DNA of 58,914 bases from contig JAQYOA010000048.1 in NCBI GenBank assembly GCA_028727605.1, positions 1 to 58,914 of the forward strand. Reading direction: 5' to 3'. A program made the position numbers and the translations under genes. The notes beneath the pieces are model-generated. The model searched no databases, was not told where the DNA came from, and was given only the letters and a program-made list of their open reading frames with translations. Source of the DNA: Lachnospiraceae bacterium. GTDB lineage: Bacteria > Bacillota > Clostridia > Lachnospirales > Lachnospiraceae. Positions within the stretch are counted from its first letter, which is position 1. Each line of letters opens with the position of its first letter. Of the stretch, positions 28,091 to 52,744 are shown piece after piece.

Positions 28091-28099
28091 CGCTTCCTC

Positions 28100-28900
28100 C
28101 TATAAAACATCTGAAAAATGAACACGCAGACGCTTGAATACTTTTGAACTCACCAGTACCAGAACCAGTACAAAGGCCCAGAAATACAAAGTCATCCAGG
28201 GATGTTCAAAAAACCAGATTCCATTCATGAAACTCTCCCGGTATCCCTGCACAATATAATACAGCGGATTCAGTTTCAGGATACGGTCCAGCCATTGCGG
28301 AATATTTGCTATCGTCGTTTTATCCCACAGAATCGGAGTCGCCCACATTCCCACAGAGAGACAAACATTGATAATCTGTCCGAAATCACGGAAAAACGGG
28401 GTGATGGCACAGGTCAGATAGGACAGCGCCGTCACAAAACAGATCACCGCAAACATATAATAGGGAATCTGAATAATCTGAATCGGCGGAAGTTTTCCCA
28501 TCGCCACAAAGACCACCAGCGTAAATACAATAAAAAACAAATGTACAAACAGGGAAGAGATGATCTTAACAATAGGAAGAATACTGATCTTAAAGACCAC
28601 TTTTTTTACCAGATAACTGTATTCCAGAAGGCAATTGGATGCGCTCGGCAGCGCATCAGAAAAGAAAAACCACGGAATAATGCCCGCTACCAGCCAGCAG
28701 ATATACGGATAACCGGTTGCCGAAGGGTTGACGCGCAGACCCAGCTGAAACACAACGAAATATACGGCAACGGTTACCATCGGCTGGATAAATGCCCAGA
28801 TGATACCAAAATAGGAGCCGGCGAATTTGTTTCTGAAATCGTTTTTACTCAATTTCCAGATTAATCTCCGGCTCTGATATAACTCTTTCAATACATTCAT
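28100..28900 (-). CDS. polysaccharide ABC-2 type permease (Wzm-like)
   Basis: SKNDFRNKFAGSYFGIIWAFIQPMVTVAVYFVVFQLG; SLLFV..; downstream partner of the ATPase. Confidence 0.93.
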   Translation of the reverse strand: MNVLKELYQSRRLIWKLSKNDFRNKFAGSYFGIIWAFIQPMVTVAVYFVVFQLGLRVNPSATGYPYICWLVAGIIPWFFFSDALPSASNCLLEYSYLVKKVVFKISILPIVKIISSLFVHLFFIVFTLVVFVAMGKLPPIQIIQIPYYMFAVICFVTALSYLTCAITPFFRDFGQIINVCLSVGMWATPILWDKTTIANIPQWLDRILKLNPLYYIVQGYRESFMNGIWFFEHPWMTLYFWAFVLVLVLVSSKVFKRLRVHFSDVL

Positions 28901-29519: not shown

Positions 29520-29548
29520 ATTATAGCATTATGCAAGGGGAAACTCAA
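29520..29548 (-). promoter_or_regulatory. putative promoter of the rfbC-wzm-wzt operon
   Basis: TTGAGT (29543-29548) - 17 nt - TATAAT (29520-29525), minus strand. Confidence 0.6.
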
Positions 29549-29674
29549 GCTTCTTTGTCCTTTTGTTCTCCTTGGCAGTCCCCGATTTTTGCTGTACCGG
29601 ATAAAATTTCCGATAATAGTTATAAAAAATTAGGAAAATCGTAAGAAATGCTGTCCTTTTTGTTATCTTTCTGT

Positions 29675-29680
29675 TATAAT
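29675..29680 (+). promoter_or_regulatory. putative extended -10 (TGTTATAAT) for the sulfatase-fold gene
   Basis: TATAAT preceded by TG-T; no strong -35. Confidence 0.4.
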
Positions 29681-29741
29681 ACCGTAAGCTGCAGGTAAAT
29701 TCTGCGAAACATACGAATACTATGATGGAGGTTGATTTACG

Positions 29742-35233: not shown

Positions 35234-36139
35234 TCATCCTTTTTTTGAATCTGTATCTTTATTCTTCTTTCCGCAGCAATAATAAATTCCCCGATACCGC
35301 TCACAGGAATGCTCCAGATCGGTAAAAACCGCATCATGATGCGGCTTCTGCTCCTCCTTTGGCGGCAGCTCCATATAATTGCCGAACGCCATCTTCAGAT
35401 AAATGTCATACCCCACCGGAATCGGAAGACGTTCTTCTTCAAAGGGAACCTCGATGGCCGAGGCAAATATTTTCTTCGGATACTTCCTAAGAATCGCCTG
35501 CGGCGCACACATCTCCGTGATACCATCCACACGGGGGCTGTTGATATCAAACTTTGTGATATAATTTTTCGCATGGTTCCATACAGCGAAGCGCATATTC
35601 TGGGTCGGACAGAGTGCAAGCAGCACTTTTCCAAGATAGTGCATAAATGCACCGTGACGTTCTTTCGACGGGATCACCTGGGTACAGAACAGCTGAAAGA
35701 TTTTTCCTTCTGCGATCTGAAGCTTTCTGGCAAAAAATCCCGGCGCATATCCCTCAATCGGAAGGATATCAAGTGCGACTCCATGGCACAGATCCATATC
35801 CACCTGTTCTTTTTTCACCTGCGTCGTTCTGCTGTCCCGAATATTTGCGAAGGTATGGGCATTGCAGAAACCTTTCTTTGGGTATTCCAGTTTGTAGATC
35901 TTACTCTCCTCCTGGGTATCCCAAAGTTGCAGAAATCTTTCATAATCTTTTCTCGGCATAAAAAAATCCAGATCATCGTCCCACGGAATAAATCCGCCGT
36001 GACGAATCGCTCCGATACATCCGCCTCCGCACAAATAACAGAGAAGGTGATTTCTCTGGCACCAATGGTAAAACATAACCGCCATTTCCAGATTCTTCTT
36101 CTGCAGGGCTTTCAGTTCCATATCCTCTGTATTATACAT
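35234..36139 (-). CDS. LicD family phosphocholine transferase-like protein
   Basis: YLCGGGCIGAIRHGGFIPWDDDLDFFMPRKDYERF motif. Confidence 0.9.
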   Translation of the reverse strand: MYNTEDMELKALQKKNLEMAVMFYHWCQRNHLLCYLCGGGCIGAIRHGGFIPWDDDLDFFMPRKDYERFLQLWDTQEESKIYKLEYPKKGFCNAHTFANIRDSRTTQVKKEQVDMDLCHGVALDILPIEGYAPGFFARKLQIAEGKIFQLFCTQVIPSKERHGAFMHYLGKVLLALCPTQNMRFAVWNHAKNYITKFDINSPRVDGITEMCAPQAILRKYPKKIFASAIEVPFEEERLPIPVGYDIYLKMAFGNYMELPPKEEQKPHHDAVFTDLEHSCERYRGIYYCCGKKNKDTDSKKG

Positions 36140-37535
36140 TCTGATCCTCTTTCTTTTCTTTGTTTTCGGACAGACTTACGATCTGACCCTCTTCCAGTCC
36201 TTCTGTGCTTTCCTTCATAAACAGAATTTTCACGGTCAGAAGAATCAGTTTCAAATCCTCCAGAATCGAATAACTTTCGATATACATCAGATCCAGTTTC
36301 AGTTTATCATACGCTGTTGTATTGTATTTTCCGTAGATCTGAGCATATCCGGTCAGACCTGCTTTTACTTTCAGCCGGTAAGAAAACTCCGGAATCGTCT
36401 CGCTGTACTCTTCTGCAATTTCCGGACGTTCCGGCCTCGGTCCCACAATACTCATATCACCTTTTATGATATTAATCAGCTGAGGCAGTTCGTCAATCCG
36501 AAGTGCACGGATGACTTTTCCCACAGGTGTGATTCTCGAATCATGTTTTGTCGCAAGACGGGCAACACCGTCCTTTTCCGCATCGACAATCATACTGCGA
36601 AACTTATAAATTTCGAATACCTTTCCGTTTATTGTCAGACGTTTTTGTCTGAAAAAGACAGGACCTCCGTCATAGAGCTTGATGCATACCGCTGTAATCA
36701 GCATAATCGGAGATGCTATGACAAGCATCAAAAGCGATACAATCAGATCCAGTACTCGTTTGCAGAATCGCTGATCCGGTGAAAGGCCGCTGTTTCTGGC
36801 CAGCAGCAGCGGTGTGTCAAAAATATGAAGTGCCTCTGCCTTTCGGATCATCAGATCAGAAAGCTTTGGGGTCATATAAACACGGATCGAGCGGGAATAG
36901 CAATATTTCAGCAGCCGGTTTCGAAGTTCTGAATGAAGATCACCCAGAATGACCCCCTCCTGCCCGTTTTGATCAATCTGACGGTAAAGTTCCTTCTCAC
37001 CGACCGATGCATGTACCTTTGTCTTTACATCATATTTTTCTTTGCGCTGATTCATCTTCCATGCAAGGGAATCCATTTGGTACTCATCGTAGATCAGCAA
37101 AAGCTTTCTCGGCGGAAACAGCCGCGCAAAAAAACGGTCTGACAGAAAGGAAATGATCGCCGATACTGTAAAATCCATCAGCGTCATACAGATCATCGGC
37201 AGAATGTAAGGCATATGTCTCCACAAAAGCATGATTTGAAAATACATCAGTACATTTGTACAAAACGCTGCGATTGCCTGGGAATAGATGATACTGCTTC
37301 CCTTCATATAACCGATTTTCATGCCTCCGTAAATATACATAAAGACCAGCAGAAAGATTCCATAGACAACAACAATCAGTTTATTGCCCTTATCCCAAAA
37401 CGGCTCAATCCAGAGACGTTCTCCATAATAACGGTTCCAAAAAAAAGCAAAAATCAGACATTCCAGAATCAGAATGACTGCCACCGCACAGATCCGCAGT
37501 AAATGTTTGTATTGTTCCCTGTCTCTATTTCTCAT
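36132..37535 (-). CDS. polyprenyl glycosylphosphotransferase (second copy)
   Basis: PVFFRQKRLTINGKVFEIYKFRSM; RIDELPQLINIIKGDMSIVGPRPERPE; N-terminal TM segments. Confidence 0.92.
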   Translation of the reverse strand: MRNRDREQYKHLLRICAVAVILILECLIFAFFWNRYYGERLWIEPFWDKGNKLIVVVYGIFLLVFMYIYGGMKIGYMKGSSIIYSQAIAAFCTNVLMYFQIMLLWRHMPYILPMICMTLMDFTVSAIISFLSDRFFARLFPPRKLLLIYDEYQMDSLAWKMNQRKEKYDVKTKVHASVGEKELYRQIDQNGQEGVILGDLHSELRNRLLKYCYSRSIRVYMTPKLSDLMIRKAEALHIFDTPLLLARNSGLSPDQRFCKRVLDLIVSLLMLVIASPIMLITAVCIKLYDGGPVFFRQKRLTINGKVFEIYKFRSMIVDAEKDGVARLATKHDSRITPVGKVIRALRIDELPQLINIIKGDMSIVGPRPERPEIAEEYSETIPEFSYRLKVKAGLTGYAQIYGKYNTTAYDKLKLDLMYIESYSILEDLKLILLTVKILFMKESTEGLEEGQIVSLSENKEKKEDQNV

Positions 37536-37571: not shown

Positions 37572-38339
37572 TTATGCCTTCCGATATGCCTTCGCATACT
37601 TTTTCAATCCATTCCATGCGTAACAGAAAAAATAACCGACTGCCCGAACCCGCCCGATTCCAAGATGACGGTACACCTGATACGTCATACCGGCGGAGTG
37701 AAATTTGTTTCCGGATTTACCGCTGCTGCTCACATAATATTTCAGCAGCGGTTCCGCAATGCCGCATGCCGTCCTGTACTTTCTAAGGATACGCAGCCAG
37801 CATAAATAATCTTCATGACACTCATCTTTTTCCATCGGGAATTCCAAAAGGACACTTTTCTTTGCCAGAACAGAAGAACAATTGATCACATTCCCCAAAA
37901 GAAGCTGCTGATAAGTAATCTTCTCATTAACGGGAATTACCTTTCCGGATGGCGCTCCTTTTTCGTCCACAAGCTCCCTCCCGGTACAGCAGAGTACCTC
38001 ACCGGTACTCTCCATGAGCCTTTGCTGTTTTTCCAGTTTATCGGCAGCCCAGTAATCATCCGCGTCAAGAAATGCAATATATTCACCTGACGCAGCAGCC
38101 ACACCGCGATTCCTGCTGGCTGATACTCCCAGATTTTCTTCATTTTTCAGATACCGCACTCTTTTTTCATTTGCATATTTTCTCATCACAAGTTCTGTCT
38201 CATCACTGGAAGCGTCATCAATCACCAGAATTTCCAGCGGAACTTGCTGAAGCAATGCAGAATCGACTGCCCGGCAAATTGTTTTTGCGCTGTTATAGGC
38301 AGGAATTACCACTGATACCATATTTATCCTCTTTTGCAT
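37572..38339 (-). CDS. GT2 glycosyltransferase
   Basis: VSVVIPAYNSAKTICRAVDSALLQQVPLEILVIDDASSDET; AFLDADDYW. Confidence 0.9.
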   Translation of the reverse strand: MQKRINMVSVVIPAYNSAKTICRAVDSALLQQVPLEILVIDDASSDETELVMRKYANEKRVRYLKNEENLGVSASRNRGVAAASGEYIAFLDADDYWAADKLEKQQRLMESTGEVLCCTGRELVDEKGAPSGKVIPVNEKITYQQLLLGNVINCSSVLAKKSVLLEFPMEKDECHEDYLCWLRILRKYRTACGIAEPLLKYYVSSSGKSGNKFHSAGMTYQVYRHLGIGRVRAVGYFFCYAWNGLKKYAKAYRKA

Positions 38340-38365: not shown

Positions 38366-39178
38366 TTACAGCCACCAGGCATCCGACTCGTGCTTGGGTA
38401 CCCTCTCTTCCACCGGAGGAAGTTTCCTGTAATCACCGTATAGTGTATGAAGATAGGTCTCATATCCAATGGGTGCGTTAATCAGATGCCCCTCAAACGG
38501 CAGTCGAATCTGTTTTTCGACTGCTTCTTTCGGAATCACATCGCTTTTCCGATATCCTCCGCACATACAGGCAACATAATCAGATCCCAATACCGGGTAC
38601 TTTTTGCATTCTTTTTCGATTTTTTGAAGAATTCTTTCTTTTCCATAGCATTTTCGGATCGCCCACTTACACCATTTCATCACCGTACCTTTCTGTCCTT
38701 TCAGGGTTTCCCGGTAGGTACGAAATGCATTGAGCCTCTGACTTTCCAGAAACATCAGACCGTCCAGATGTTTTTCGTATTCTTTTGTTCCCCGCTTTGG
38801 CAGACCGTCATAGGGAAAAATATCAATAAACACTCCCGTATCCACAGAGCCTGCAAAATGCTCTTTTAAGCTTGTTCCGGTATGCACGATTTTTCCGTAG
38901 GCCAGACAGTATCCTTTCGTATTTCTGTGATTGATCAGACGATACGGATTGCCGGAATCGGAATTGACAATCTTTTCCAGCTTTTCATAGTCTCCCCGCG
39001 GCATCCATACATCCACATCATCATCCCACGGAATAAACCCCTGATGCCGGATCAGACCAAGCAGAGTGCCGTCTGCTGCAAAATAAGTCAGGTTATTCTC
39101 CAGGCAGACCTCATCAAGATAGAGCAGCAATGTGAGTGCAATATCCTGTAATTCCTTCAATTCTGTAATTTTGCGCAT
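38366..39178 (-). CDS. LicD family phosphocholine transferase-like protein (second copy)
   Basis: YFAADGTLLGLIRHQGFIPWDDDVDVWMPRGDYEKL. Confidence 0.92.
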   Translation of the reverse strand: MRKITELKELQDIALTLLLYLDEVCLENNLTYFAADGTLLGLIRHQGFIPWDDDVDVWMPRGDYEKLEKIVNSDSGNPYRLINHRNTKGYCLAYGKIVHTGTSLKEHFAGSVDTGVFIDIFPYDGLPKRGTKEYEKHLDGLMFLESQRLNAFRTYRETLKGQKGTVMKWCKWAIRKCYGKERILQKIEKECKKYPVLGSDYVACMCGGYRKSDVIPKEAVEKQIRLPFEGHLINAPIGYETYLHTLYGDYRKLPPVEERVPKHESDAWWL

Positions 39179-39199: not shown

Positions 39200-40261
39200 T
39201 TATATCCCAAGCAGCAGTTCTTTCCACATTTCTCCAATATGACTGCTGTGATAATATGCAGCGCGTTTTTTTGCTTCCTTCCCCATGGCTGTCAGCTTTT
39301 CCCGACGCTCCATCAAATCTCCCATTGCTTTGGCCAGTTCCGGGACATTTCCGTATTCCACAAATGCCATCGAATCCGAAGTTCCTGCCATTTCACGCAG
39401 CTGAAACATCTCAAACGCCACAATCGGCACTCCGCATTCCAGCGCTTCCAATGCCGTCATCGGAAAACCTTCATATCCGTTTCTCGACGGCATAACGAGA
39501 AAAGAGGCCTCCAGCAGCTGTTCCTTCACATTTTTCTGATATCCGGCAAACTCTGTCCTGTCCGCGATACCAAGCTCTTTTGCCTGCTTTTCCAGGCTTT
39601 CTCTGGTAACCCCATCCCCAATCAGACGCAGCTTCCAGCCGGGATACTGCCCCGCAATCTGTGCAAAAGCCTCCAAAAGCAAATCATATCCCTTCACTCT
39701 CTCCATTCTCCCGACGGCGACAATTCGTTTCTGATCCAGCCGGCTTTGTTCCGGAATTTCGAAAGAGACTGCATTTGGCAGGACTGCTGTATTTTTGATC
39801 CCATGTTTTCTATAATAGGAAGCGCATTCCTCCGTCAGCACCACCAGACGATCCGCTTTTCTGTACATCAAAAGGTTCAAAAGCTTTCTCTTCCATGTAT
39901 AATAATAGACAGAATTGTGCTCCGTTGCAATCCATTTGACCGATTTGGCAAGACGCGGCATCAAAACCGCCATCAGCTGCGCCAGATAAAGATGAAATGT
40001 AAAGATATAATCATAGCTGTTTCCAGACCGCAGCAGATATTCTTTCACAAATTTTTTTCCCTCTTTCAGACCGTTCCTTTTTCCGTGAATCACACGTACT
40101 TTTTCACTTAAGGTGAAAAAGGCGGATGTTTCTTCCGAATATAGGGAAAGGATATCTACATTCCATGAGAAAGTCTCCGTAAAATACCTGCTTAATATCG
40201 CGATGACACGCTCAATTCCACCCACCTGATTCACATCATAGGTAATAAAACAGATTTTCAT
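39200..40261 (-). CDS. GT4 glycosyltransferase
   Basis: VNQVGGIERVIAILSRYF; RIVAVGRMERVKGYDLLLEAFA; EGFPMTALEALECGVPIVAFE. Confidence 0.93.
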   Translation of the reverse strand: MKICFITYDVNQVGGIERVIAILSRYFTETFSWNVDILSLYSEETSAFFTLSEKVRVIHGKRNGLKEGKKFVKEYLLRSGNSYDYIFTFHLYLAQLMAVLMPRLAKSVKWIATEHNSVYYYTWKRKLLNLLMYRKADRLVVLTEECASYYRKHGIKNTAVLPNAVSFEIPEQSRLDQKRIVAVGRMERVKGYDLLLEAFAQIAGQYPGWKLRLIGDGVTRESLEKQAKELGIADRTEFAGYQKNVKEQLLEASFLVMPSRNGYEGFPMTALEALECGVPIVAFEMFQLREMAGTSDSMAFVEYGNVPELAKAMGDLMERREKLTAMGKEAKKRAAYYHSSHIGEMWKELLLGI

Positions 40262-40442: not shown

Positions 40443-42713
40443 ATGCATCGCAGCATTTTTCACAGCCTGAAACGTCCTGTTTTGTCCGGCGCTGTGATTC
40501 TTCTTGGGGCCTTTTCCCTTCTTTCCGCTCCCGAAACAGCTTCTGCTGCCACTGGTACAGCGAAAATTCACGTACTCACACTCCCTGGAAATACAACAGC
40601 TGTTCTTTTGGAAAGCAAAGATAAATACGGTCAGAAAGTTTTCGGTATGGTGGATTCCGGCGAAGACTGGGATTACCCGGACGGATCGGATGAACGCTAT
40701 CCCAAACGCAGCGGAATCATTACCAATGAAGGTTATGATCAGGAAGTTCTGGACTATTTGGACTCGGTAGGAGTCACTTCTTATAATCTTGAGTTTTATG
40801 TCGCAACCCATCCTCACAGTGATCATATCGGCACTGCAGACACCATTATTCGCAATTACAGCCCCGAACGAGTCTATCTTCTGGATTATCAGGATTCCTA
40901 TATATCCGATGAAACCCGCCTGTGGGATAATCTCTATGTCTACGATCAGACAGTTCAGGCAGCCAGTGAGACTTCCGGTGTCACTTTAATTTCTCATCTG
41001 GATCCCAATGCTTCTTCCGCAGAAGACGGAAATCCCAGTTTTTCACTTGGATATTTTGATATACAGATTGTCAATTATGACGAGGATTTTCTGACAAAGC
41101 CAAAAGAGGATGTCAACCAGTTCTGTCTCGGTGTCATTGCAACGGCGAACAACCATCGGGCTTTCCTTTCCAGTGACATTGACAACACAGAGAAAAACGG
41201 TTCCACTCCGGGCGATCTGGATAAGATTCTGGCAGATTACAATTTATCTGATATTGATCTTGTCACCGCAAATCATCACGGATATGACAATGCGATGGAT
41301 ACGGATTATCTGAAGAGTATCAGTGCAGATTATTTCGTCCAGCCTGGCTATTTCCGTCTCCTTCAGGAGGATAAAATCTCTCTTCTGTCCCAGATGAACT
41401 CAAGGATTTTTTCCACGACCGCTTACACTGATTCTGTTTCGGCTATTATCGTGGATTTTTCCGCATCGAATGTGACCTCCAATGTGGATGACACCTATAT
41501 TATTTATGAAAACTACAGCAGTGAACTGTGTGCCTACTATGACGGCCTGCCCTATCACGGCTTTTTCACTTTGAACGGGGACAAGTATTACTCCGACGAG
41601 GACGGTATTCTGCTGCGCAATACCAACTGGCTGGATACCTCCACAAACACAGAATACACCTTTGACGAAGACGGCCGAATTATCAGTGAAAAAACGCCCC
41701 TTGGCTGGGAAAAGAAAGACGGTAAATGGTATTATCCTTATTCTGACGGAACTTACCACACCGGATGGCTCTCCTATGACGGCAGCCTCTATTACCTGGA
41801 TGAAGACGGTGTCATGGCAACAGGATGGTATGAGATCGACGATAACTGGTATCTGTTTGCCGACTGGGGCGGAATGCTGACCGGATGGCAAAAATACGAT
41901 AATGAGTGGTATTATCTGGACACGGATACCGGCATTATGTATCACAGTGGATGGCATCCGGATCCAAGAGACGGTACCATGTACTACTTTTATTCCTGGG
42001 GCGGCATTGCCAAAAGCAAGACCCTTACCCTCTCCGGACATCAGATCCGTTTCCTGAGCTGGGGCGGTGTGTCCGGTGAGGCATTTATCCGAATGAACAA
42101 CAACTGGTATCTGGTTCGCAATTACGTCTGTGTACAGGGGAGCGGCTGGCAGAAAGTTTCCGGTGAATGGTACTATCTGAATGATAACGGCACTCTAAAA
42201 ACCAGCGAATCTTTTCTCTATGACGGCAGCCGGTATTTTGTCAACGATTCCGGAAAAATGTATCATGATCAATGGATTGACTGGAATGACAATCGCTACT
42301 ATGTCACCAGTTGGGGCGGTGCGCTGACAAATCAGTGGTTCCAGTTCCAGAGCAAATGGTATTTTCTGAACGAAGACGGAACCATGAAACGAAAAGAATC
42401 TTTCATTTATGATGAGAATCTGTACTTTGTGAACGATTCCGGTGTCATGTATTCCGATCAGTGGGTACACTGGGATGAAGACTGGTATTACGTAAAAAGC
42501 TGGGGCGGTGCAATGCGCAATGAATGGCTCCATACGAAAGACGGAAAATGGTATTATCTGGATGATGACTGTACCATGGTAACCGGATGGAAAATCATCA
42601 ACGGAAAGACCTATTATTTCGATGAGGACGGAGCAAGAGTGACCGAAACTCAGACGATCGATGGTGTTACTTATACTTTTGACCGCAACGGAGTTCTGAC
42701 AGAGCAGGAATAA
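40443..42713 (+). CDS. secreted Pce/CbpE-like phosphorylcholine esterase: MBL-fold domain plus choline-binding-type repeats
   Basis: Signal peptide; DSGEDWDYPDGSDERYPKRSGI, ATHPHSDHIGTAD, ETRLWDNLYVYDQTVQ resemble pneumococcal Pce; C-terminal GW/YY repeats (SLYYLDEDGVMATGWYEIDDNWYLF). Confidence 0.82.
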   Translation: MHRSIFHSLKRPVLSGAVILLGAFSLLSAPETASAATGTAKIHVLTLPGNTTAVLLESKDKYGQKVFGMVDSGEDWDYPDGSDERYPKRSGIITNEGYDQEVLDYLDSVGVTSYNLEFYVATHPHSDHIGTADTIIRNYSPERVYLLDYQDSYISDETRLWDNLYVYDQTVQAASETSGVTLISHLDPNASSAEDGNPSFSLGYFDIQIVNYDEDFLTKPKEDVNQFCLGVIATANNHRAFLSSDIDNTEKNGSTPGDLDKILADYNLSDIDLVTANHHGYDNAMDTDYLKSISADYFVQPGYFRLLQEDKISLLSQMNSRIFSTTAYTDSVSAIIVDFSASNVTSNVDDTYIIYENYSSELCAYYDGLPYHGFFTLNGDKYYSDEDGILLRNTNWLDTSTNTEYTFDEDGRIISEKTPLGWEKKDGKWYYPYSDGTYHTGWLSYDGSLYYLDEDGVMATGWYEIDDNWYLFADWGGMLTGWQKYDNEWYYLDTDTGIMYHSGWHPDPRDGTMYYFYSWGGIAKSKTLTLSGHQIRFLSWGGVSGEAFIRMNNNWYLVRNYVCVQGSGWQKVSGEWYYLNDNGTLKTSESFLYDGSRYFVNDSGKMYHDQWIDWNDNRYYVTSWGGALTNQWFQFQSKWYFLNEDGTMKRKESFIYDENLYFVNDSGVMYSDQWVHWDEDWYYVKSWGGAMRNEWLHTKDGKWYYLDDDCTMVTGWKIINGKTYYFDEDGARVTETQTIDGVTYTFDRNGVLTEQE

Positions 42714-42790: not shown

Positions 42791-44338
42791 CTATTTCATA
42801 TCTTTCATATCTTTCACATCATTTCCGGCATCCTTCAGGAAAGATGCCACAATCAAAATCAACAATATGCCGATGGGAAAAGCTGCAATAATTGAGACGG
42901 ACTGAAGACTGTACATGGAATTCTCGGAAAAAATCAGAGCGATGGGAAGCAGTATAAAGAGAACTGCCCAGAACGTCCTCACTTTTTTATCCGGCTCCGT
43001 ATCTACGGGAAGTTTTTTGTAAGAATAAGCGGAAACAACCATAGTCAATGCATCAAAGGTCGTTGAATAAAACGCAATCATCGTGATAACAAGAAGCAAA
43101 AGCCCAATCCGGTTAATGGGAAGCGTATCAAAAATTTTAAGAATCGCCTCGGCATAATTGCCTCCGGATGCAATCTCTCCGGAAACAGCAACTCCATGCT
43201 TTAACTCCTGTGCCATTCCATAGTTCCCAAGGATAATAAAAGAGGTATAGGTTCCCGCAAGCCCCCAGGCATAGCCTCCAAGAACCGTATTGCGCACGGT
43301 TCTTCCCCGGCTGATTTTCCCGATAAAAAACGGGGTTGCCACACACCAGACCATCCAATAGGCCCAATAATAAATGGTCCAGTTCTGAGGAAACGAGGTT
43401 TCCCGTAACGGGTCCATCCAGGTTGCCATACCGACAAAATTCTGAATCAGATTGCCAATGGCGGAGAAACCGGTCTCCAGAATGTAACGCGCCTCACCTC
43501 CGCCAATCAAAACATAAAGCAGTAATGCGAAAAAAAGCCAGGAACAGCAGGCTGCCAGTTTCGAAACACCCTTCATTCCAAACCAGACGGTCAGGGTATA
43601 TATCGCGGCAATCACGAGCAGAATCAGGATCGTCAGCCCGGTTCCGCTCTTCAGGCCGAATACTTTTCCCACAGCTGCCGAGAGAAGGGGCGTCGCCAAC
43701 GAAAAGGTGGTGGCTGTTCCAGCCAGCAATGCAAAAATTGCCAGCAAATCAATCAGTTTTCCCGGCACACCATCCACAAGATTTCCGAGAATCGGGCGGC
43801 ATCCTTCCGAAAATTTCTGTTTCTCTCTTCCACGCACATGAAGCATAAAACCAAAAGCCACTGCCAGAACAATATAAAAACTCCATGCAATCGGTCCCCA
43901 GTGAAACAGGGGATAGGTGGACGCCCACTTCTGGATCCCTCCCATCGCTTCGATCTGCGGTTCCCCCGCGTAAAGTGCCCATTCGCAAAAAGAGTAGAAC
44001 AGGATATCCGCTGCCATGGTAGAGGTAAAAATCATCATTCCCCAACGTAAAGAGGAATACTGCGGTTTCTCATCCTCTTTCCCGAGACGGATCCTGCCAT
44101 ACTTTGAAAATGCAAAATAAATGGAACATCCAAACATTCCGACTCCAAGCACGGCATAATACAGACCACAATCGTCTCCGAGGAAGCCCCGGATCCCATC
44201 CAGCAGTTCTGCAGACTGGTCCGGAACTGTCACAAAGAAAATACAAAGTACTGCAATGACACATAAAGGGATCCATATGGATGCCCAGTCGATTTGTGTT
44301 TTCCATTCCGCCGCCCCCTTTTTCTTATCCCGTCTCAT
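42791..44338 (-). CDS. BCCT family (betaine/choline/carnitine) transporter
   Basis: 515 aa, ~12 TM; YWAYWMVWCVATPFFIGKISRGRTVR; FHWGPIAWSFYIVLAVAFGF. Confidence 0.9.
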   Translation of the reverse strand: MRRDKKKGAAEWKTQIDWASIWIPLCVIAVLCIFFVTVPDQSAELLDGIRGFLGDDCGLYYAVLGVGMFGCSIYFAFSKYGRIRLGKEDEKPQYSSLRWGMMIFTSTMAADILFYSFCEWALYAGEPQIEAMGGIQKWASTYPLFHWGPIAWSFYIVLAVAFGFMLHVRGREKQKFSEGCRPILGNLVDGVPGKLIDLLAIFALLAGTATTFSLATPLLSAAVGKVFGLKSGTGLTILILLVIAAIYTLTVWFGMKGVSKLAACCSWLFFALLLYVLIGGGEARYILETGFSAIGNLIQNFVGMATWMDPLRETSFPQNWTIYYWAYWMVWCVATPFFIGKISRGRTVRNTVLGGYAWGLAGTYTSFIILGNYGMAQELKHGVAVSGEIASGGNYAEAILKIFDTLPINRIGLLLLVITMIAFYSTTFDALTMVVSAYSYKKLPVDTEPDKKVRTFWAVLFILLPIALIFSENSMYSLQSVSIIAAFPIGILLILIVASFLKDAGNDVKDMKDMK

Positions 44339-44341
44339 CTC

Positions 44342-45061
44342 TCATATCCTTTCCGGCATTTTGCGATAGCTTTGATCCAGCTTCACCAGATCCTCCATAC
44401 TGTCAACTTCCATCAGATCCCCCGGCTGCATTTCTCTGATCCCAAGCTGATATTCTTTTGGATAACAAAAAAGTGCCACATCGTCCCAGTAAACAGCAGT
44501 ATTTTTCTTTTGTTCAAATTCAATCTCCAGATGGCGTTTCAGTCGTCTGCCGTCTTCCCGGTTCCATCGTGAAATACTGTACAGCTGCCAGCCATGGGAA
44601 CCTCCCGTACGGCTGCATCCGGTTACGATTCCATTTTGAACCTCAAGCACCCATTCGTCGGTCGTCTGATCTGTCCATACACAGTTGTATCCGGATCGTT
44701 CGAATTCCGGAGACAGGATTTCCTCCCGGTAAATGATCTGATCCCCATCCAGGATCATGACATCCTCCAGATGTTCCCTTGCCGCATACAAAGATGAAAT
44801 ATTATTGCAGGTATCATACCATGGATTTTCAATCAGGGTAATTCCCTCATATTCTTCCGTGAGGCTCAAAAACTGCTCTTTTTTATATCCCACTACCACA
44901 TAGATTTCCGTGATCCCATTCCTGTTCAGCCCACGGATCACCGTATCAATCATCCGAATGCCGTTGACTTTCACCAGCGGCTTTGGCGTTTCCAGTGTCA
45001 CCGGACGCAGACGATTTCCGATCCCGGCTGCCATAATAATCGCACGTTTTACTCTGAACAT
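44342..45061 (-). CDS. licC: CTP:phosphocholine cytidylyltransferase-like (LicC)
   Basis: RAIIMAAGIGNRLRPVTLETPKPLVKVNG; TDEWVLEV; TAVYWDDVALFC; EVDSMEDLVKLD. Start at MFRVKRA (45061). Confidence 0.82.
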   Translation of the reverse strand: MFRVKRAIIMAAGIGNRLRPVTLETPKPLVKVNGIRMIDTVIRGLNRNGITEIYVVVGYKKEQFLSLTEEYEGITLIENPWYDTCNNISSLYAAREHLEDVMILDGDQIIYREEILSPEFERSGYNCVWTDQTTDEWVLEVQNGIVTGCSRTGGSHGWQLYSISRWNREDGRRLKRHLEIEFEQKKNTAVYWDDVALFCYPKEYQLGIREMQPGDLMEVDSMEDLVKLDQSYRKMPERI

Positions 45062-46830
45062 GTTTCCTCCTCCTGCTTTTGACACTCTTCTTTTACAAGA
45101 CGGCAGTATTCCTTGGCATATCGATACTGTCTCAAAGAATATTCGCCAAACTCAATTCCCAGGCTCCGTTTATATTCGCACCAGTTGCTCCAGAGGAGTC
45201 CGCATACGGATATATAACCATAGATCTTGATACGGACCTTTCTTTGGCAGCCTTCCGGAAAATAGGCATCAATCAGTTCCTCCATTTGGCTTCGATTGTA
45301 GAGCGCATAGATACCAAACATGGCAATGTCCACATGAGGATCCTGCATGCCGGCATACTCCCAGTCAATCAGACGAAGTTCCTCCCTTCCGTCTTTCCCT
45401 GCGACAAAAAGGAAGTTATCCGGTACCGCATCAATGTGTGTCAATACTTTCTCTTTTTCACAGCTCTCCAAAAAAGGTTTCAGAGAAAACACCTGTGCTT
45501 TCGTCTTTTCGTAATCCCGATAAACAGAAGGAATCGTTCCTCTGAGCGACTCGTAAAATTCAATCTGTTCAAACAGATCAAACTCATGCTCAACGGTAAA
45601 ACCCATATTATGGAATTCTCTCAGTTTTTTCATGCAGGCAGTTACTTCCCATCGATTCTGCGAATTGCAGACACGTGCACCTTCCAGATATTCCGTGATC
45701 TTATATCCGTTTTCGGAATTCAGATACACAACTTCATCGCAGATTCCTTTTCCTGCAATGGTGCAATATACTTCGGCCTCCTGTGCCCTGTGAATCAGAC
45801 GTTCGGTTCCCTCGCCCGGAATCCTCATAATATATTTCTTCCCGCGGCATGCAAACAGAAACGATCGGTTCGTCATTCCTTTTTTCAGAACCTGTATCTC
45901 ACCAATTTCCTCTGTCTGCACATGAAGTGCCGCGGCAATGGTGTCGATTGCATCGGATTTTAGCTGGCTCGAATCGTTGTCCAGTTCGCGAAGCTGTTCG
46001 TACGTATTGATTTCCACTGCATCAAGTATGGAAACCACTTTTGCAGGAACAATCATACGATCTTTCTGATACAAAGCTTCTTCCCAGAATGCGCCGTCAT
46101 ATCGGCTGTCCTGACATAACTCCTGAATACGTTTTCGGACAAAAGCCGCATCCGGTTCCAGAAGATAGGCGATTCCAATCATGGCATTTCCCCCCATTCC
46201 TTCCGAAACGGAAACCAGTTCCATCTTTCGATTCACTCTGACAGAACTCTCCTGCTCCACACAGTCACTGACCATATACCAGGAATACAGTTCACAGTCC
46301 GAAAACGGATTCCGGTCACACCAAATGTCACATGGGATCACATAGGTATTGGACAAATGAGAAAGCACCAGTTTCATGGAATGAAGGTTATTCTTTACCG
46401 CATATTCCGTCCCCACAACCAGTTCCACACCGTATTCATCGATGAGATACTCATATTGCTCTTTCATAAAACCGACTACCACATAGATTTCAGAAATGCC
46501 TGCTTCATGAAGCTGACAAATGATACGCTCAATCAGCGGCTCACCGTGTACCTCCAAAAGGCCCTTGGGCGTTTCCGTATTGATCGGCACCATACGCATT
46601 CCAAAGCCTGCTGCCAGAATCACCGCATTTTTCGGTGCTTTTTCCCGGAACTCGCTTTGGGCTTTTGCCGTAGGAAAAAGCTCATCATTCAAATATCCTT
46701 CCTGAATCAGCGTCTTCAGAGATCGATTTACAATTCCAAGAGAATGTCCGGACTCTTTTGCAAGAATCCTCTGATTCACGAAAGGATTCTTTCTTATGGT
46801 GTTCAAAATATCATACTCCTGTATGTTCAT
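45049..46830 (-). CDS. fusion: N-terminal winged-HTH + LicC-like nucleotidyltransferase + LicA-like choline kinase
   Basis: aa 1-62 MNIQEYDILNTIRKNPFVNQRILAKESGHSLGIVNRSLKTLIQEGYL; NAVILAAGFGMRMVPINTETPKGLLEV; kinase LTHIDAVPDNFLFV..LRLIDWEYAG. Confidence 0.87.
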   Translation of the reverse strand: MNIQEYDILNTIRKNPFVNQRILAKESGHSLGIVNRSLKTLIQEGYLNDELFPTAKAQSEFREKAPKNAVILAAGFGMRMVPINTETPKGLLEVHGEPLIERIICQLHEAGISEIYVVVGFMKEQYEYLIDEYGVELVVGTEYAVKNNLHSMKLVLSHLSNTYVIPCDIWCDRNPFSDCELYSWYMVSDCVEQESSVRVNRKMELVSVSEGMGGNAMIGIAYLLEPDAAFVRKRIQELCQDSRYDGAFWEEALYQKDRMIVPAKVVSILDAVEINTYEQLRELDNDSSQLKSDAIDTIAAALHVQTEEIGEIQVLKKGMTNRSFLFACRGKKYIMRIPGEGTERLIHRAQEAEVYCTIAGKGICDEVVYLNSENGYKITEYLEGARVCNSQNRWEVTACMKKLREFHNMGFTVEHEFDLFEQIEFYESLRGTIPSVYRDYEKTKAQVFSLKPFLESCEKEKVLTHIDAVPDNFLFVAGKDGREELRLIDWEYAGMQDPHVDIAMFGIYALYNRSQMEELIDAYFPEGCQRKVRIKIYGYISVCGLLWSNWCEYKRSLGIEFGEYSLRQYRYAKEYCRLVKEECQKQEEETCSE

Positions 46831-46861: not shown

Positions 46862-46890
46862 ATAATAATACAATACCTTTGGCCTGTCAA
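46862..46890 (-). promoter_or_regulatory. strong promoter of the HTH-NTase-choline kinase fusion
   Basis: TTGACA (46885-46890) - 17 nt - TATTAT (46862-46867), minus strand. Confidence 0.75.
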
Positions 46891-46899
46891 GACCAAAGG
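46876..46899. promoter_or_regulatory. 7-bp inverted repeat centred on the -35 element (candidate operator)
   Basis: CCTTTGG-N10-CCAAAGG perfect dyad at 46876-46882 / 46893-46899. Confidence 0.5.
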
Positions 46900-47444
46900 C
46901 TGCATTTCGTCACTGCCAGAAACAAAAATGCCAGGCCTCCGAGAAAAGAAAGATCACACTGTCTGTGATTCCATAACGCTTTTCCCAGAAAATACCCGGC
47001 ATACATGGTAATCATTCCCATCACAAAGACCGCTGCTGAAGTTCCTGCCACAGAGATTCCAAGCATCGCTGCAAAAGGCGCCGACAAAATACCATCTGTG
47101 GACATTGCAAAAGAAAGAAAAACCGTCTCCTTCAGTGATAATTTTTTCACCGGCTGCTTACGTTCAACAGACCGGCAAGAAAAACGCTTTCTGAAATAAT
47201 CTATGAACTTGATACCTCCAAGCATCATAAAACTCACAAAACAGATTTTCTCCAAAACATCCGGAGAGATCAACAGATCGATTTCTTTCCCAAGACACAT
47301 CGCCAGGGCAAGTGTCAGACTGCAAATCAGATTCAGCAAAACCGCCATTTTCCATGGTATTCGAATGCCGTCACTGCCATAACCCATACCGGCGGCGAAA
47401 TTATCCAGTACGAGGGCCAGCACCAGGAAAACCATCTCTGACAT
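46887..47444 (-). CDS. MntP/YtaF family membrane protein
   Basis: LVLALVLDNFAAGMGYG and LSFAMSTDGILSAPFAAMLG duplicated TM motifs; start MSEMVF (47444). Confidence 0.75.
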   Translation of the reverse strand: MSEMVFLVLALVLDNFAAGMGYGSDGIRIPWKMAVLLNLICSLTLALAMCLGKEIDLLISPDVLEKICFVSFMMLGGIKFIDYFRKRFSCRSVERKQPVKKLSLKETVFLSFAMSTDGILSAPFAAMLGISVAGTSAAVFVMGMITMYAGYFLGKALWNHRQCDLSFLGGLAFLFLAVTKCSLWS

Positions 47445-47518
47445 TCTATTTTCTCCATCCGTTTTCTCACAATACTTTATTCCGCCTGCGGGAAAACGGT
47501 GCAGAAAACCAACTATTC

Positions 47519-48190
47519 TCATTGAATCGCGGTTCTGAACTCTCTGATATGATCGGCAAAATCCTCCACTCCGGTTCGAAAAATACTGGAGGTTCCCGCA
47601 ACAAAAATACTTGCTCCGCAGGTTCGAAGTTCCGCCCCGTGTTCGTTGGTAATATTACCGTCTACCTCAATAATGATATCTTCTCTGCCGTTTCTCTTCA
47701 GGAAATCCTGAAGTTTTCTGGCTTTACGCAGCGTACTCGGGACGATTTTCTGACCGGCAAATCCGGGATTTACCATCAAAAGGTTCACACCGTCAATGTA
47801 GTCAAGCACTTCTTCAATCTCATAAATCGGTGTGGCGGGATTGATTGCCAGAAAACGCTTGCATCCATACGGTGCAAGATAGTCCAGCGCACGCTGAACC
47901 TGAAAGGTGCTTTCATAATGAATCGTCGCAATATCCTTTTCCCGGATTCCAATCCACGGAAGTTTATACTCCGGATTTTTAATCATCAGATGCAGATCCA
48001 GAGGGATCGAGGTCAGCTCCCGGAGTCCGCGGATGTAATCCACGCCCAGTCCAAAATTCGGAACAAATTCCCCATCCATCACATCGATATGAAGATATTC
48101 TATTTTTTCCTGCTCAAAAACATCAATTGTAGCCTGTAAATCTACCAGATTGGAACACATCATTGATGCGGATATTTCACTTTTTCTCAT
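47519..48190 (-). CDS. rpe: ribulose-phosphate 3-epimerase
   Basis: EISASMMCSNL, LHIDVMDGEFVPNFGLG, LDLHLMI, VNPGFAGQKI, IEVDGNI; ATG at 48188-48190 overlaps the upstream stop (ATGA). Confidence 0.9.
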   Translation of the reverse strand: MRKSEISASMMCSNLVDLQATIDVFEQEKIEYLHIDVMDGEFVPNFGLGVDYIRGLRELTSIPLDLHLMIKNPEYKLPWIGIREKDIATIHYESTFQVQRALDYLAPYGCKRFLAINPATPIYEIEEVLDYIDGVNLLMVNPGFAGQKIVPSTLRKARKLQDFLKRNGREDIIIEVDGNITNEHGAELRTCGASIFVAGTSSIFRTGVEDFADHIREFRTAIQ

Positions 48191-49227
48191 CTTAGCCCTT
48201 TCTCTTCTTCCTGATCCCATTCGATCATTACCTTGCAGTAAGGTTCCTGCTTTGTTCTCATCAGTTCCAGTCCTTCCATCAGCCGTTCCGCCGGATAGCA
48301 ATGAGAGATCAGACATGCAACATCAATTTCTCCGGATGCCATTGCCTCAACTGCTTCGCTCCAGTCACACTTCGCATCCTTTTCATAGGAAGAATTCCAG
48401 GTACCGGTCACCGAAATCTGTTTGCGCAGGATTCTCCAATAGACCGCTTGTTTCAGACTAATATCCGACTTCGGATTTCCCATCAGGACAACACGGCCTC
48501 CCGGATTAACAATGGAAAGAGCGGTTTCCACAGCCTCTTTGGATCCTACCGCTTCTATGACACAATCAAACAAAGGCAGCTCTTCCATCTCTTTTTGAAT
48601 CAGGTAGGAAATACCTGGAATCCGGTCTGCAATCTTCTTTTTTTCTTCACTTCTTCCAATGACACAGACGCTCTTGGCGCCCATGCTCTTTGCCCATTGC
48701 GCTGCAGCAAAGCCAATCATACCGCTGCCAATCACTGCTACAGTATCCCCGGATCGAATTTCTCCTCTTTTTACCGCATGGAGCGCAACAGAAAGAGGTT
48801 CCAGCATAGCTGCTTTTCGGTAACTGACATTTTCCGGAAGTTCTACAAGATTCCAGGCAGGAACCGCTGCATATTCCGCAAAACCGCCGTCTCTTCGCGA
48901 TCCCAGATAATCGTAATACTCACACAGCTCATACTGTTTTTTCTGGCAGGCACCGCATTTCCGACAGGGAATCAGCGGGAATACTCCAACTCTCTTTCCC
49001 AGAAGTTCCCGATCCTGCGGATCGGCGGTCTCCACAACAATACCGGAAAACTCATGTCCCGGAATTGTCGGAAAATGATAGGTTCCATTTTGGAAAATCC
49101 GTGGAATGTCCGAACTGCAGATACCGGCCGCTTTCACCTGAACCAGTACCCATCCTGGTTTGAGCGCAGGTTTTTCTGTTTCTTCCCGGACCAGATCACC
49201 GATTCCTCTTAACTGATATGCTTTCAT
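48187..49227 (-). CDS. zinc-dependent medium-chain alcohol dehydrogenase (TarJ/GatD-like)
   Basis: GHEFSGIVVE, CRKCGACQKKQYELC structural zinc site, GSGMIGFAAAQWAKSMGAKSVCVIGRSEEK cofactor fold. Confidence 0.85.
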   Translation of the reverse strand: MKAYQLRGIGDLVREETEKPALKPGWVLVQVKAAGICSSDIPRIFQNGTYHFPTIPGHEFSGIVVETADPQDRELLGKRVGVFPLIPCRKCGACQKKQYELCEYYDYLGSRRDGGFAEYAAVPAWNLVELPENVSYRKAAMLEPLSVALHAVKRGEIRSGDTVAVIGSGMIGFAAAQWAKSMGAKSVCVIGRSEEKKKIADRIPGISYLIQKEMEELPLFDCVIEAVGSKEAVETALSIVNPGGRVVLMGNPKSDISLKQAVYWRILRKQISVTGTWNSSYEKDAKCDWSEAVEAMASGEIDVACLISHCYPAERLMEGLELMRTKQEPYCKVMIEWDQEEEKGLR

Positions 49228-49955
49228 TCTCTCTCCTCTCCCAACAGACTGCGGAAACGTTCCAGATCGCTTTGTGTGGTGATTTTAAAGTTTCTGTCAT
49301 CCCCCGGGATCAGTGTCACATCCATACCGCAGCGATAAGCAATTTCACTGGTTCCCTTTACTTCTGCAAGTTCCCTCTCCGGCGTTTCCCGATTGATACG
49401 GGCATACTTCCACAGATGAAATGCTTCCGGTGCCTGTCCCGCATACAGAGTACTTCTCTCCAGGAGCTGATCAATGCTTTTTCCATCGCTGCTCTGATAA
49501 ATGGTATCATTCATGGGAAGTACCGGCATACAGCCTTCATGCTCCAAAAGCGCTCCAAGGCAGCTCTGAATCAGTTCTCCGGTCACCATAGGACGCACAC
49601 CGTCATGAATAATCACTTGATCCTTCTCATTTTTGGAGGTCATCATACACATCTCCAGACCATTTCGAATCGATTCCTGACGACTCTCTCCGGCTGATGC
49701 AAAACAATCAAATTTTGTGATACGATACTGTTTTACCCATTCCTGAATCTGATTCTGCCATTCTTTGGCCGCAACAATCACAATTCGATCAATCTCCGGT
49801 GTCTCCTGAAAACACTCCAGTGTGTAAATCAAAATCGGTTTCTTCTTTACTTCCAGATACTGCTTCGGGAAAGATCCCATCTTCATCCGGGTTCCGACTC
49901 CGCCGGATAAAATCACTGCATAATTCGTCATCGTATCGTTCCTTTCTTTCGTCAT
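49224..49955 (-). CDS. IspD/TarI family cytidylyltransferase
   Basis: AVILSGGVGTRMKMGSFPKQYLEVKKKPILIYTLECFQ; IIHDGVRPMVT; GTSEIAYRCG. Likely start at MTNYAV (49931). Confidence 0.85.
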   Translation of the reverse strand: MTKERNDTMTNYAVILSGGVGTRMKMGSFPKQYLEVKKKPILIYTLECFQETPEIDRIVIVAAKEWQNQIQEWVKQYRITKFDCFASAGESRQESIRNGLEMCMMTSKNEKDQVIIHDGVRPMVTGELIQSCLGALLEHEGCMPVLPMNDTIYQSSDGKSIDQLLERSTLYAGQAPEAFHLWKYARINRETPERELAEVKGTSEIAYRCGMDVTLIPGDDRNFKITTQSDLERFRSLLGEERE

Positions 49956-52744
49956 TGCGATTCCTTCTTCCGATTTGCGCGCAGTTCCTCCAGAAACTGT
50001 ACCACATCCCCGGACGCATGATCCAGAAGATAATTTTTCCCTCCGGGAGTTGCTCCCAGATAGTTTTCTCTTATTTGCCCGTTTGATGCTTCAATCTCTG
50101 TCTGCAAGTCTCTCGCTGAGAGGCGCCGCGCTCCCTGACCCATGATAATAATCTGCTCCAGCCCATCGGAAGTTGCCACCGTTACCTGTCCCTTTTTCCC
50201 GATTTTATGAACCGTCTTTTCGATATACTGGTCTGCTGTCTCTGCCTCTCTGGTATAGACTACATGAATATTATGATATTTCGAAATTTCGCCCTGACTT
50301 TCCTTTACTTTATAGGCGTCAAAAACCAGAATCAGCGTCATCTTTTTATATCCCTGATAGTTACACAGGATATCCATCAGTCTGCCCCTGGCGCTCTCAA
50401 TATTGTATGCCGCCAACTCCCGCAGCTCCTCCCAGGCAAAGATCACGTTATATCCGTCTACAAGAAGGTATTCTTCTTTTTTTTCACGTTCCTTTGCCGA
50501 TTGGCCTCCTCTCGGTTCGCAGAACTCCGCCGAAGGCGGATCTCTTCGCACCACGGGTTTTGTCCGCCTCTCAAACCCTGCTTTTTTTCGCTCAACGGGA
50601 CCATAGGTTCGCTCAAAGATTTCTTCCAGTTCTTTTGCTTCCGCCAGAGAGGACGGCATCGGAACCCGCTCGGAGGCTTTTCTCTTTGAGACACCAGATG
50701 CTCCTGTCAGGCTCCCGTTCCTTCCGGCATCCTCATGCTCCTGTATCTCATCTCCTGTCGTTTCCAGGCCTTTTGCTGCTTCCAGATGCATGTAATTCTC
50801 CACCTGATCCCAACTCACCACAAAACCGGCACCATGCGCACAGAAAACAGAACCCGTTGGATTCTCCGTATCCTTTTCCGAATCATATCCTCTCTTCTCA
50901 ATCACTTCTTCCTGATTGTGGCAGGGCTCATACCCTTTCAAGGTCAGAGAAAGGTGGCCGCGTCCCCGGGAGTAGGAGGTTACTTCCCGCTGATACCCCT
51001 GAATGCAGGCAGCCGGAGCTGTACCGGTAATTACGGTCAGATCCCCTTCCATCACAGGAGGCTGAAAGTCCCCGCACATTCTTTGAATGTCATTCAGTGC
51101 CCGTCCGGTTGCTTCCGTGGGAATTTCCAGCCGATATTCGTAAACCGGCTCCAGCAGACAGGACTCCGCCTTTTTTAAGCCCTGACGAACCGCACGATAG
51201 GTCGCCTGCCGGAAATCCCCTCCTTCTGTATGCTTTAAGTGCGCCCTTCCATTAACCAGTGTAATCCGCATGTCCGTAATTTCCGATCCGGTAAGCACAC
51301 CCGGATGAGTCCGCTCTTCCAGATGGGTTAAAATCAGTCTCTGCCAGTTCCGATCCAGAACATCCTCACTGCAGGCAGTGTCAAATACCAGACCGCTTCC
51401 CGGTTCCCCGGGCTCCAGCAGCAGATGGACTTCCGCATAATGGCGCAGCGGTTCAAAATGTCCTACCCCTTCCACGGTATTTTTAATCGTCTCTTTGTAT
51501 ACGATATTGCCCGAACCGAATTCCACCCAGACACCGAATCGTTCACGAATCATTCTCTGCAGAATCTCAATCTGCACTTCTCCCATAACCTGCGCATGAA
51601 TCTCACCGAGGCGTTCATTCCACAAAATATGAAGTTCGGGAATCTCTTCTTCCAGCTGTCGGAGTTTCAGAAGCATCCCATGCACGTCACATTCCGGCGG
51701 AAGCATAATCTGGTAATTCAGAACCGGCTCCAGAAGAGGCTTTTCGGATTCACTCTCCTCCCCCAAGCCCTGACCGGCCCGCGTCTGACTAAGTCCGGTC
51801 ACGGTACAGATCATACCCGGGCCAGCTTCATTGACCAGCTGATAGGACGCTCCGGAGTAAAGGCGAATCTGATCTATTTTTTCCTCCCATTCTCCTCCAA
51901 GAGCCGCATTCCCTCCCCGGATGATCATCTTTACTTTCATTGTACCGCCGGTAACCTTCAGATGGGTCAGGCGGTTGCCCTGATTGTCCCGTGATATCTT
52001 ATAAACCCGCGCTCCGAACCCGGAAGCATAATCACAACCGTCCGTGTATTGCTCCAGTCCCTGCAAAAACTCGTCGACACCCGTAAGCTTTAATGCAGAC
52101 CCGAAATAACACGGAAAGACCTTCCGTCCGCGGATCATTTCCCGTATTTTTCCAATTTCTATTTTCCCCGACTCCAGATAGGATTCCAGGGCTTCCTCCT
52201 CACACATGGCAAGTTGATCAAACAATTCCTCTTCCGGTACTGTAAAATCCAGACAGCGGTCATCCAGCCGTCTCTGCAGTTCAGACATCAGCCGCATCTG
52301 ATCGGTTCCGGGCTGATCCATTTTATTGACAAACAAAAATACCGGTACTTCATAACGGCGAAGAAGACGCCACAACGTCTCCACATGTCCCTGCACACCG
52401 TCCGCTCCGCTGATCAAAAGAATCGCATAGTCCATCACCGAGAGTGCACGTTCCATCTCCGCCGAAAAATCCACATGCCCCGGCGTGTCCAGAAGCGTAA
52501 TTTCCTTCTCTCCAAGTGTCAGTCTTGCCTGCTTGGAAAAGATCGTAATTCCGCGCTCTTTCTCCAGGACTTCCGTATCCAGAAATGCGTCCTGATGGTC
52601 GACTCTCCCCACTTTCCGAATGCTTCCGGTTTTATAAAGAATCCCCTCGGCAAGTGTCGTTTTTCCAGCATCCACATGAGCCAGCAGGCCCATACAAATC
52701 TGTTTCTTCTTATTCCTTTTTTCTGCCTGTTCTCCCATGATCAT
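49952..52744 (-). CDS. EF-G/TetM-like translational GTPase fused to C-terminal NYN (YacP/Rae1-like) domain
   Basis: GLLAHVDAGKTTLAE, ERGITIFSKQ, LLDTPGHVDFSAEMER, NKMDQPG; C-terminal LLVDGYNVIFAWEEL...VFDAYKV...TREAETADQYIE...VATSDGLEQIIIMGQGARRLSARDL. Confidence 0.92.
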   Translation of the reverse strand: MIMGEQAEKRNKKKQICMGLLAHVDAGKTTLAEGILYKTGSIRKVGRVDHQDAFLDTEVLEKERGITIFSKQARLTLGEKEITLLDTPGHVDFSAEMERALSVMDYAILLISGADGVQGHVETLWRLLRRYEVPVFLFVNKMDQPGTDQMRLMSELQRRLDDRCLDFTVPEEELFDQLAMCEEEALESYLESGKIEIGKIREMIRGRKVFPCYFGSALKLTGVDEFLQGLEQYTDGCDYASGFGARVYKISRDNQGNRLTHLKVTGGTMKVKMIIRGGNAALGGEWEEKIDQIRLYSGASYQLVNEAGPGMICTVTGLSQTRAGQGLGEESESEKPLLEPVLNYQIMLPPECDVHGMLLKLRQLEEEIPELHILWNERLGEIHAQVMGEVQIEILQRMIRERFGVWVEFGSGNIVYKETIKNTVEGVGHFEPLRHYAEVHLLLEPGEPGSGLVFDTACSEDVLDRNWQRLILTHLEERTHPGVLTGSEITDMRITLVNGRAHLKHTEGGDFRQATYRAVRQGLKKAESCLLEPVYEYRLEIPTEATGRALNDIQRMCGDFQPPVMEGDLTVITGTAPAACIQGYQREVTSYSRGRGHLSLTLKGYEPCHNQEEVIEKRGYDSEKDTENPTGSVFCAHGAGFVVSWDQVENYMHLEAAKGLETTGDEIQEHEDAGRNGSLTGASGVSKRKASERVPMPSSLAEAKELEEIFERTYGPVERKKAGFERRTKPVVRRDPPSAEFCEPRGGQSAKEREKKEEYLLVDGYNVIFAWEELRELAAYNIESARGRLMDILCNYQGYKKMTLILVFDAYKVKESQGEISKYHNIHVVYTREAETADQYIEKTVHKIGKKGQVTVATSDGLEQIIIMGQGARRLSARDLQTEIEASNGQIRENYLGATPGGKNYLLDHASGDVVQFLEELRANRKKESQ

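Follow-up and report, generated by a model that had tools for sequence, protein, structure and literature searches.

A predicted Pce-family phosphorylcholine esterase encoded within a lic-type gene cluster in Lachnospiraceae

Comparisons of sequence, of a predicted structure and of gene neighbourhoods strongly support the view that an open reading frame at positions 40443-42713 (forward strand) of a Lachnospiraceae contig encodes an enzyme of the Pce family and lies in a locus of lic type. The window analysed is 58,914 bases long, one whole contig of a 2.9 Mb Lachnospiraceae draft genome. The family assignment agrees with the DNA of other genomes placed in the same family, which is identical to that of loci from the named species Mediterraneibacter glycyrrhizinilyticus and Faecalicatena contorta. 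Pce is a known bacterial enzyme that takes phosphocholine off wall teichoic acids, and phosphocholine is a target of natural antibodies and of C-reactive protein. The pneumococcal lic1 and lic2 regions comprise tarI, tarJ, licA, licB, licC, licD1, licD2 and tacF, and to our knowledge pneumococcal pce lies outside both; by contrast, the window gene sits within its lic cluster.

In the pneumococcus, Pce strips about 20% of the phosphocholine off teichoic acids (PMC4929436). Phosphocholine decoration beyond streptococci is already known: a survey of 26 phosphocholine-bearing species tied Lic-1 genes to glycan-linked phosphocholine. For Erysipelothrix, for commensal Neisseria and for Haemophilus it reports both the pathway and phosphocholine; for Actinomyces it reports Lic-1 genes and a phosphocholine epitope recognised by antibody (PMC10434233). 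As in the window, the Lic-1 systems of Haemophilus, Erysipelothrix and Actinomyces place LicA, LicC and LicD genes outside the pneumococcus (PMC10434233). Neither Lachnospiraceae nor Pce appears in the main text of that survey (PMC10434233), and searches of the openly accessible literature turned up no account of Lachnospiraceae with phosphocholine, licD or a phosphorylcholine esterase, which is weak evidence of absence. The first-pass annotation had presented the locus as a full phosphocholine cycle "outside streptococci"; a lic-type locus in Lachnospiraceae is indeed what we find, but it is less exceptional than that wording implied, since Lic-1 phosphocholine had been reported elsewhere (PMC10434233).

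A Pce-type catalytic domain and choline-binding-type repeats

The reading frame starts with ATG and encodes 756 amino acids, and its translation contains GEDWDYPDGSDERYPKRSGI, THPHSDHIG and RLWDNLYVYDQ; the span and all three motifs are exactly as first annotated. The start codon and an apparent secretion signal, MHRSIFHSLKRPVLSGAVILLGAFSLLSAPETASA (40443-40547, forward strand), were recognised by eye in the translation as a hydrophobic N-terminus, typical of signal peptides, upstream of the metallo-beta-lactamase (MBL) domain. The Pce-type MBL catalytic domain follows at residues 36-376 (40548-41570, forward strand; phmmer, alignment, profile and fold), and about 15 choline-binding-type repeat hairpins occupy residues 418-756 (41694-42710, forward strand; Pfam Choline_bind_1/2/3 and a repeat listing). 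An apparent signal peptide and C-terminal choline-binding-type repeats are likewise features of pneumococcal Pce/CbpE (2BIB, 1WRA).

Membership of the MBL domain in the Pce family, first proposed from motifs, is borne out by profile and structure comparison. Among solved structures the closest by phmmer is pneumococcal Pce/CbpE (2bib; total E 4.9e-56), with residues 40-301 aligning at a domain E of 7.5e-36. A family profile built from nine homologues matches CbpE/Pce at E 4e-69 to 3e-68, the runner-up being ComEC at 1.8e-9. An AlphaFold model of the domain (pLDDT 88.5, pTM 0.90) finds 2bib and 1wra as its top solved matches in Foldseek (E 5e-27, 30-32% identity; TM 0.77-0.78 on the query and as high as 0.87 on the target), followed by ComEC at 2e-14. 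The C-terminal MBL domain of ComEC is thus second nearest by both fold and profile, yet far weaker, and unlike ComEC the window protein carries choline-type repeats and a Pce-specific acidic segment; given the wide score gap in both searches, a generic MBL or ComEC domain was rejected. Viral origin was also rejected, a scan of viral contigs having returned no relative.

Sequence identity to pneumococcal Pce across the MBL domain is only about 30%, set against close agreement at particular positions. The alignment pairs Pce H85, H87, D89, H90, D203 and H229 with H123, H125, D127, H128, D245 and H279 of the window protein, so that putative metal ligands are present at all six Pce metal-ligand positions; these positions are invariant in a curated 19-sequence alignment (HxHSDH, D210, H243/H244). 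Pce H85, D89 and H90 we take to be ligands from the HxHxDH motif. The other three, H87, D203 and H229, are named metal ligands of 2bib (PMC2916828). Besides the RLWDNLY segment, the window protein shares with Pce the specific pattern GEDxDxPDGSDxRYP, and the Pce acidic segment TGEDYDFPDGSDSRYP is retained as SGEDWDYPDGSDERYP.

Several homologues show a different arrangement, in which several hundred residues interrupt the Pce MBL domain after the LWDN segment and ahead of the remaining half of the ligands (L034:192-1900, L040:10001-11900, L047:10001-11900 and L055:296-2100). The inserted residues resemble CnaB-type repeats by eye, and neither half of the active site is lost.

The many choline-binding-type repeats first noted after the MBL domain are recovered by Pfam above its cut-offs (Choline_bind_3 E 6.6e-39, Choline_bind_1 8e-33, Choline_bind_2 8e-8). 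By eye, about 8 of the roughly 15 hairpins retain both tryptophans of the GW...WYY pattern, as a choline pocket would require, and several, different from pneumococcal Pce, are of a WGG variant. Because the repeats also match clostridial and glucan-binding repeats (phmmer against the PDB), choline is a putative ligand of the module, predicted from its sequence. A clostridial toxin or glucan-binding protein was considered and rejected, given the Pce-type MBL at the N-terminus and the lack of anything toxin-like. The same genome encodes further repeat proteins, three with wall-active domains (Amidase_3, YkuD and Hydrolase_2), comparable to the choline-binding wall hydrolases of the pneumococcus; these three fit, as expected, the part of readers of the wall ligand.

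The surrounding lic-type cluster

The neighbours named in the first-pass annotation (a BCCT transporter, a LicC-type gene, a kinase and two LicD genes) were all found with Pfam and NCBIfam; the neighbouring genes described below between 35234 and 49955 all lie on the reverse strand. The BCCT transporter, putatively for choline uptake, lies at 42791-44338 (Pfam BCCT 7e-124). Its nearest PDB relatives are DddT and then CaiT, so the uptake step proposed earlier stands as to the gene, but choline as the substrate is a prediction. A second copy of a LicC-type CTP:phosphocholine cytidylyltransferase follows at 44342-45085 (pneumococcal LicC, 1jyk, E 2.8e-32 over residues 10-239), and next to it lies a fusion gene, 45049-46830, in which Pfam and PDB searches delimit a winged HTH (residues 1-47), LicC (about 60-256) and a LicA choline kinase (about 300-572) with the kinase motifs HIDAVPDN and DWEY. 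The LicA part matches the choline kinase 4r77 at 7.4e-33 and the LicC part matches 1jyk at 4.5e-28; the nearest solved structures of the activation genes are therefore pneumococcal, as the proposed activation step would have it. About 24 of 298 genomes of the family have a full-length match to the fusion, at 48-69% identity. With HTH_24 ahead of LicC and LicA, this CDP-choline-making enzyme may double as a DNA-binding regulator.

Beyond the fusion lie an MntP/YtaF-like membrane protein gene (46887-47522; Pfam Mntp 2.8e-7), which synteny shows to be retained in the corresponding cluster of two congeners, a ribulose-phosphate 3-epimerase family gene (47519-48316; Pfam 4.4e-46), a zinc alcohol dehydrogenase gene (48187-49227; Pfam ADH_N/ADH_zinc_N) and a TarI-like ribitol-5-phosphate cytidylyltransferase gene (49224-49955; Pfam IspD 4.2e-38), whose top PDB matches include 4jis and 6xhp, annotated as ribitol-5-phosphate cytidylyltransferases. 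The nearest PDB match of the dehydrogenase is galactitol-1-phosphate 5-dehydrogenase, and a TarJ-like role in a CDP-ribitol route is suggested by its position, because it adjoins the TarI-like gene. At 49952-52744, a single 930-aa protein joins an EF-G-like GTPase to a C-terminal YacP NYN (ribonuclease-like) domain; its gene adjoins the TarI-like gene in two congeners as well.

On the other side, a GT4 glycosyltransferase gene (39200-40261; Pfam Glycos_transf_1 2.5e-36) is divergent from the Pce gene, followed by LicD family phosphotransferase 1 (38366-39178; DDD motif, Pfam LicD 5.5e-48), a TuaG-like GT2 glycosyltransferase (37572-38339; Pfam/NCBIfam), a polyprenyl-phosphate sugar phosphotransferase (36132-37535; Pfam Bac_transf 3.3e-65) and LicD family phosphotransferase 2 (35234-36139; DDD motif, Pfam LicD 5e-37). 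LicD1 matches the NCBIfam model of diacylglycerol cholinephosphotransferase Mf1 at 4e-23, under that model's cut-off, and its sole significant PDB match, a weak one, is to fukutin-related protein, a ribitol-phosphate transferase. Attachment by two LicD proteins accordingly holds as to family and DDD motif, but one of the pair could be a ribitol-phosphate transferase, because TarI/TarJ-like genes lie in the same cluster.

A long polysaccharide cluster extends over 10337-36139, with two sugar phosphotransferases, a dTDP-rhamnose epimerase, many glycosyltransferases, an LCP ligase and, at 26780-28900 on the reverse strand, a Wzm/Wzt-type ABC polysaccharide exporter (Pfam ABC2_membrane, ABC_tran and Wzt_C). 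Two reading frames of this cluster, 24473-25825 (450 aa) and 29529-30977 (482 aa), have no Pfam match. The glycan that would carry the decoration may be a wall polysaccharide of rhamnose type instead of a classical teichoic acid, and the exporter is a candidate for moving the decorated glycan. Elsewhere in the window, two tRNA-Leu(CAG) genes (2235-2335 and 2781-2881) stand on opposite strands 445 nt apart, forming a 101-nt inverted repeat that is 96% complementary.

Like pneumococcal lic1 and lic2, the window groups TarI/TarJ-like, LicA, LicC and two LicD genes; it differs in having the HTH-LicC-LicA fusion with an extra LicC, a BCCT transporter for LicB, a Wzm/Wzt-type exporter nearby and no recognised TacF. 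Among the window genes scanned there was no MOP-type Pfam match of the kind expected of a TacF-type flippase, and the single EamA-type match in the scanned cluster was a 135-aa frame barely over the cut-off. The BCCT transporter may stand in for LicB in choline uptake.

Pce and lic genes in other genomes

Pce homologues are widespread in Lachnospiraceae, Eggerthellaceae and Actinomycetaceae, with genes in Mediterraneibacter glycyrrhizinilyticus, Faecalicatena contorta, Oliverpabstia intestinalis and Actinomyces denticolens; Actinomyces genomes related to the epitope-bearing species of the survey encode both Pce homologues and LicCA-like genes. In a phylogenetic tree, pneumococcal Pce is placed among the Bacillota rows, and since the deep forks are weak we claim no direction of transfer.

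The neighbourhood of Pce and lic genes recurs. It is retained in two congeneric loci (L021 and L022), one of them with identical order from TarI to DUF6077 and the other with most of the order, its LicCA being located elsewhere in the genome. In a more distant Lachnospiraceae MAG (L041), LicCA-LicC2-BCCT-Pce follow one another in tandem on a single strand; the order in Clostridiales bacterium S5-A14a (L071) is LicD-Pce-LicCA-LicC2-BCCT. In this last, complete lic cluster the Pce gene (L071:9740-11553) consists of two overlapping frames, by frameshift or sequencing error. Pce is distant from lic genes in several other genomes (L023, L025, L028, L031 and L040).

Of 38 Pce loci, 12 had LicA or LicD within the flanking sequence fetched, as against 0 of 28 control MBL loci (Fisher p 5.5e-4), the controls being weak MBL matches from other bacteria and imperfectly matched to the Pce loci. 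Pce is encoded by 14 of 298 Lachnospiraceae genomes. A strong LicCA match accompanies it in 9 of these 14, as against 15 of the 284 without Pce (p about 5e-8); in the same set, choline-type repeats co-occur with LicCA even after the Pce genomes are dropped (p 6e-17). All these Fisher tests count related genomes as independent, and their p-values are guides only. On the strength of the control loci and the co-occurrence tests, a chance neighbourhood was rejected. The five Pce genomes with no strong LicCA match encode divergent LicA-like and LicC-like domains, and in four of the five the LicA-like domain shares a contig with Pce, at a distance of 5 to 14 kb. LicCA-like domains are encoded in 19 of 20 further Pce genomes searched, the one with zero LicCA match being the genome that holds L042.

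A proposed phosphocholine cycle and its alternatives

We consider it quite probable that the window gene encodes a di-metal phosphocholine esterase of the Pce/CbpE family that is secreted and anchored via choline, whose neighbours would make and attach phosphocholine and which would itself trim it. The BCCT transporter would import choline, the LicA domain would phosphorylate it, and the LicC domain together with the second LicC would convert phosphocholine to CDP-choline, from which LicD would move phosphocholine onto a cell-wall glycan. The repeats would tether Pce to phosphocholine groups of the wall, where its MBL domain would cleave off part of them, and this trimming would determine the amount of phosphocholine left available to other choline-binding enzymes of the wall and to recognition from outside. 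The window likely encodes a full write/read/erase cycle, as first proposed, with choline transport, the LicD donor, the identity of the glycan and activity as its predicted steps. The analysis shows the domain identities, the conserved metal-ligand positions, the predicted fold and the recurring gene association; that the protein is secreted, what it cleaves and releases, that it binds choline, which glycan is decorated and what physiological role follows are inferences.

An alternative we regard as unlikely is that a phosphodiesterase of the Pce fold acts on some other LicD-linked group, such as phosphoethanolamine or ribitol/glycerol phosphate, and that the locus makes that decoration. The TarI/TarJ-like genes could provide CDP-ribitol, the sole significant PDB match of LicD1 points the same way, and the BCCT, nearest to DddT and CaiT in the PDB, may have a substrate other than choline; against this, the two LicC-type domains and the LicA-type kinase are nearest to pneumococcal choline enzymes, choline-type repeats sit within the same protein, and family-wide such repeats tend to be found in genomes that have LicCA. 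Less probable still is that the enzyme serves choline acquisition by cleaving phosphocholine off targets other than self, whether host glycoconjugates or neighbouring bacteria, with BCCT importing the choline released. Its apparent secretion, the adjoining transporter gene (in tandem with BCCT in L041) and the Pce genes lying away from lic genes would suit such scavenging, but the repeats would hold the enzyme on the producer's own wall, nearly all of the further Pce genomes have LicCA-like genes, and BCCT would carry choline rather than phosphocholine, no extracellular phosphatase having been identified. A non-catalytic surface adhesin with the Pce fold has a precedent of sorts in Erysipelothrix SpaA, modelled on Pce and with no activity demonstrated there (PMC7083082), but is very improbable given that the window protein keeps every ligand position and that these do not vary in the curated alignment.

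With the secreted esterase as the preferred reading, a kind of surface remodelling best known from the pneumococcus is probably shared by gut bacteria and by some Actinomycetota. We lean slightly towards a broader proposal, namely that many gut Lachnospiraceae, as well as Eggerthellaceae and Actinomycetaceae, have a self-contained system to write (LicCA, LicC and LicD), read (choline-binding wall hydrolases) and erase (Pce) phosphocholine, with pneumococcal Pce as one branch of a wider family and not its centre. If this is true, surface phosphocholine, and with it recognition by natural anti-phosphocholine antibody and C-reactive protein, would be tunable in many commensals; and should phosphocholine indeed be made, read and trimmed by gut Lachnospiraceae, their immune recognition and choline demand would become directly testable in named culturable species.
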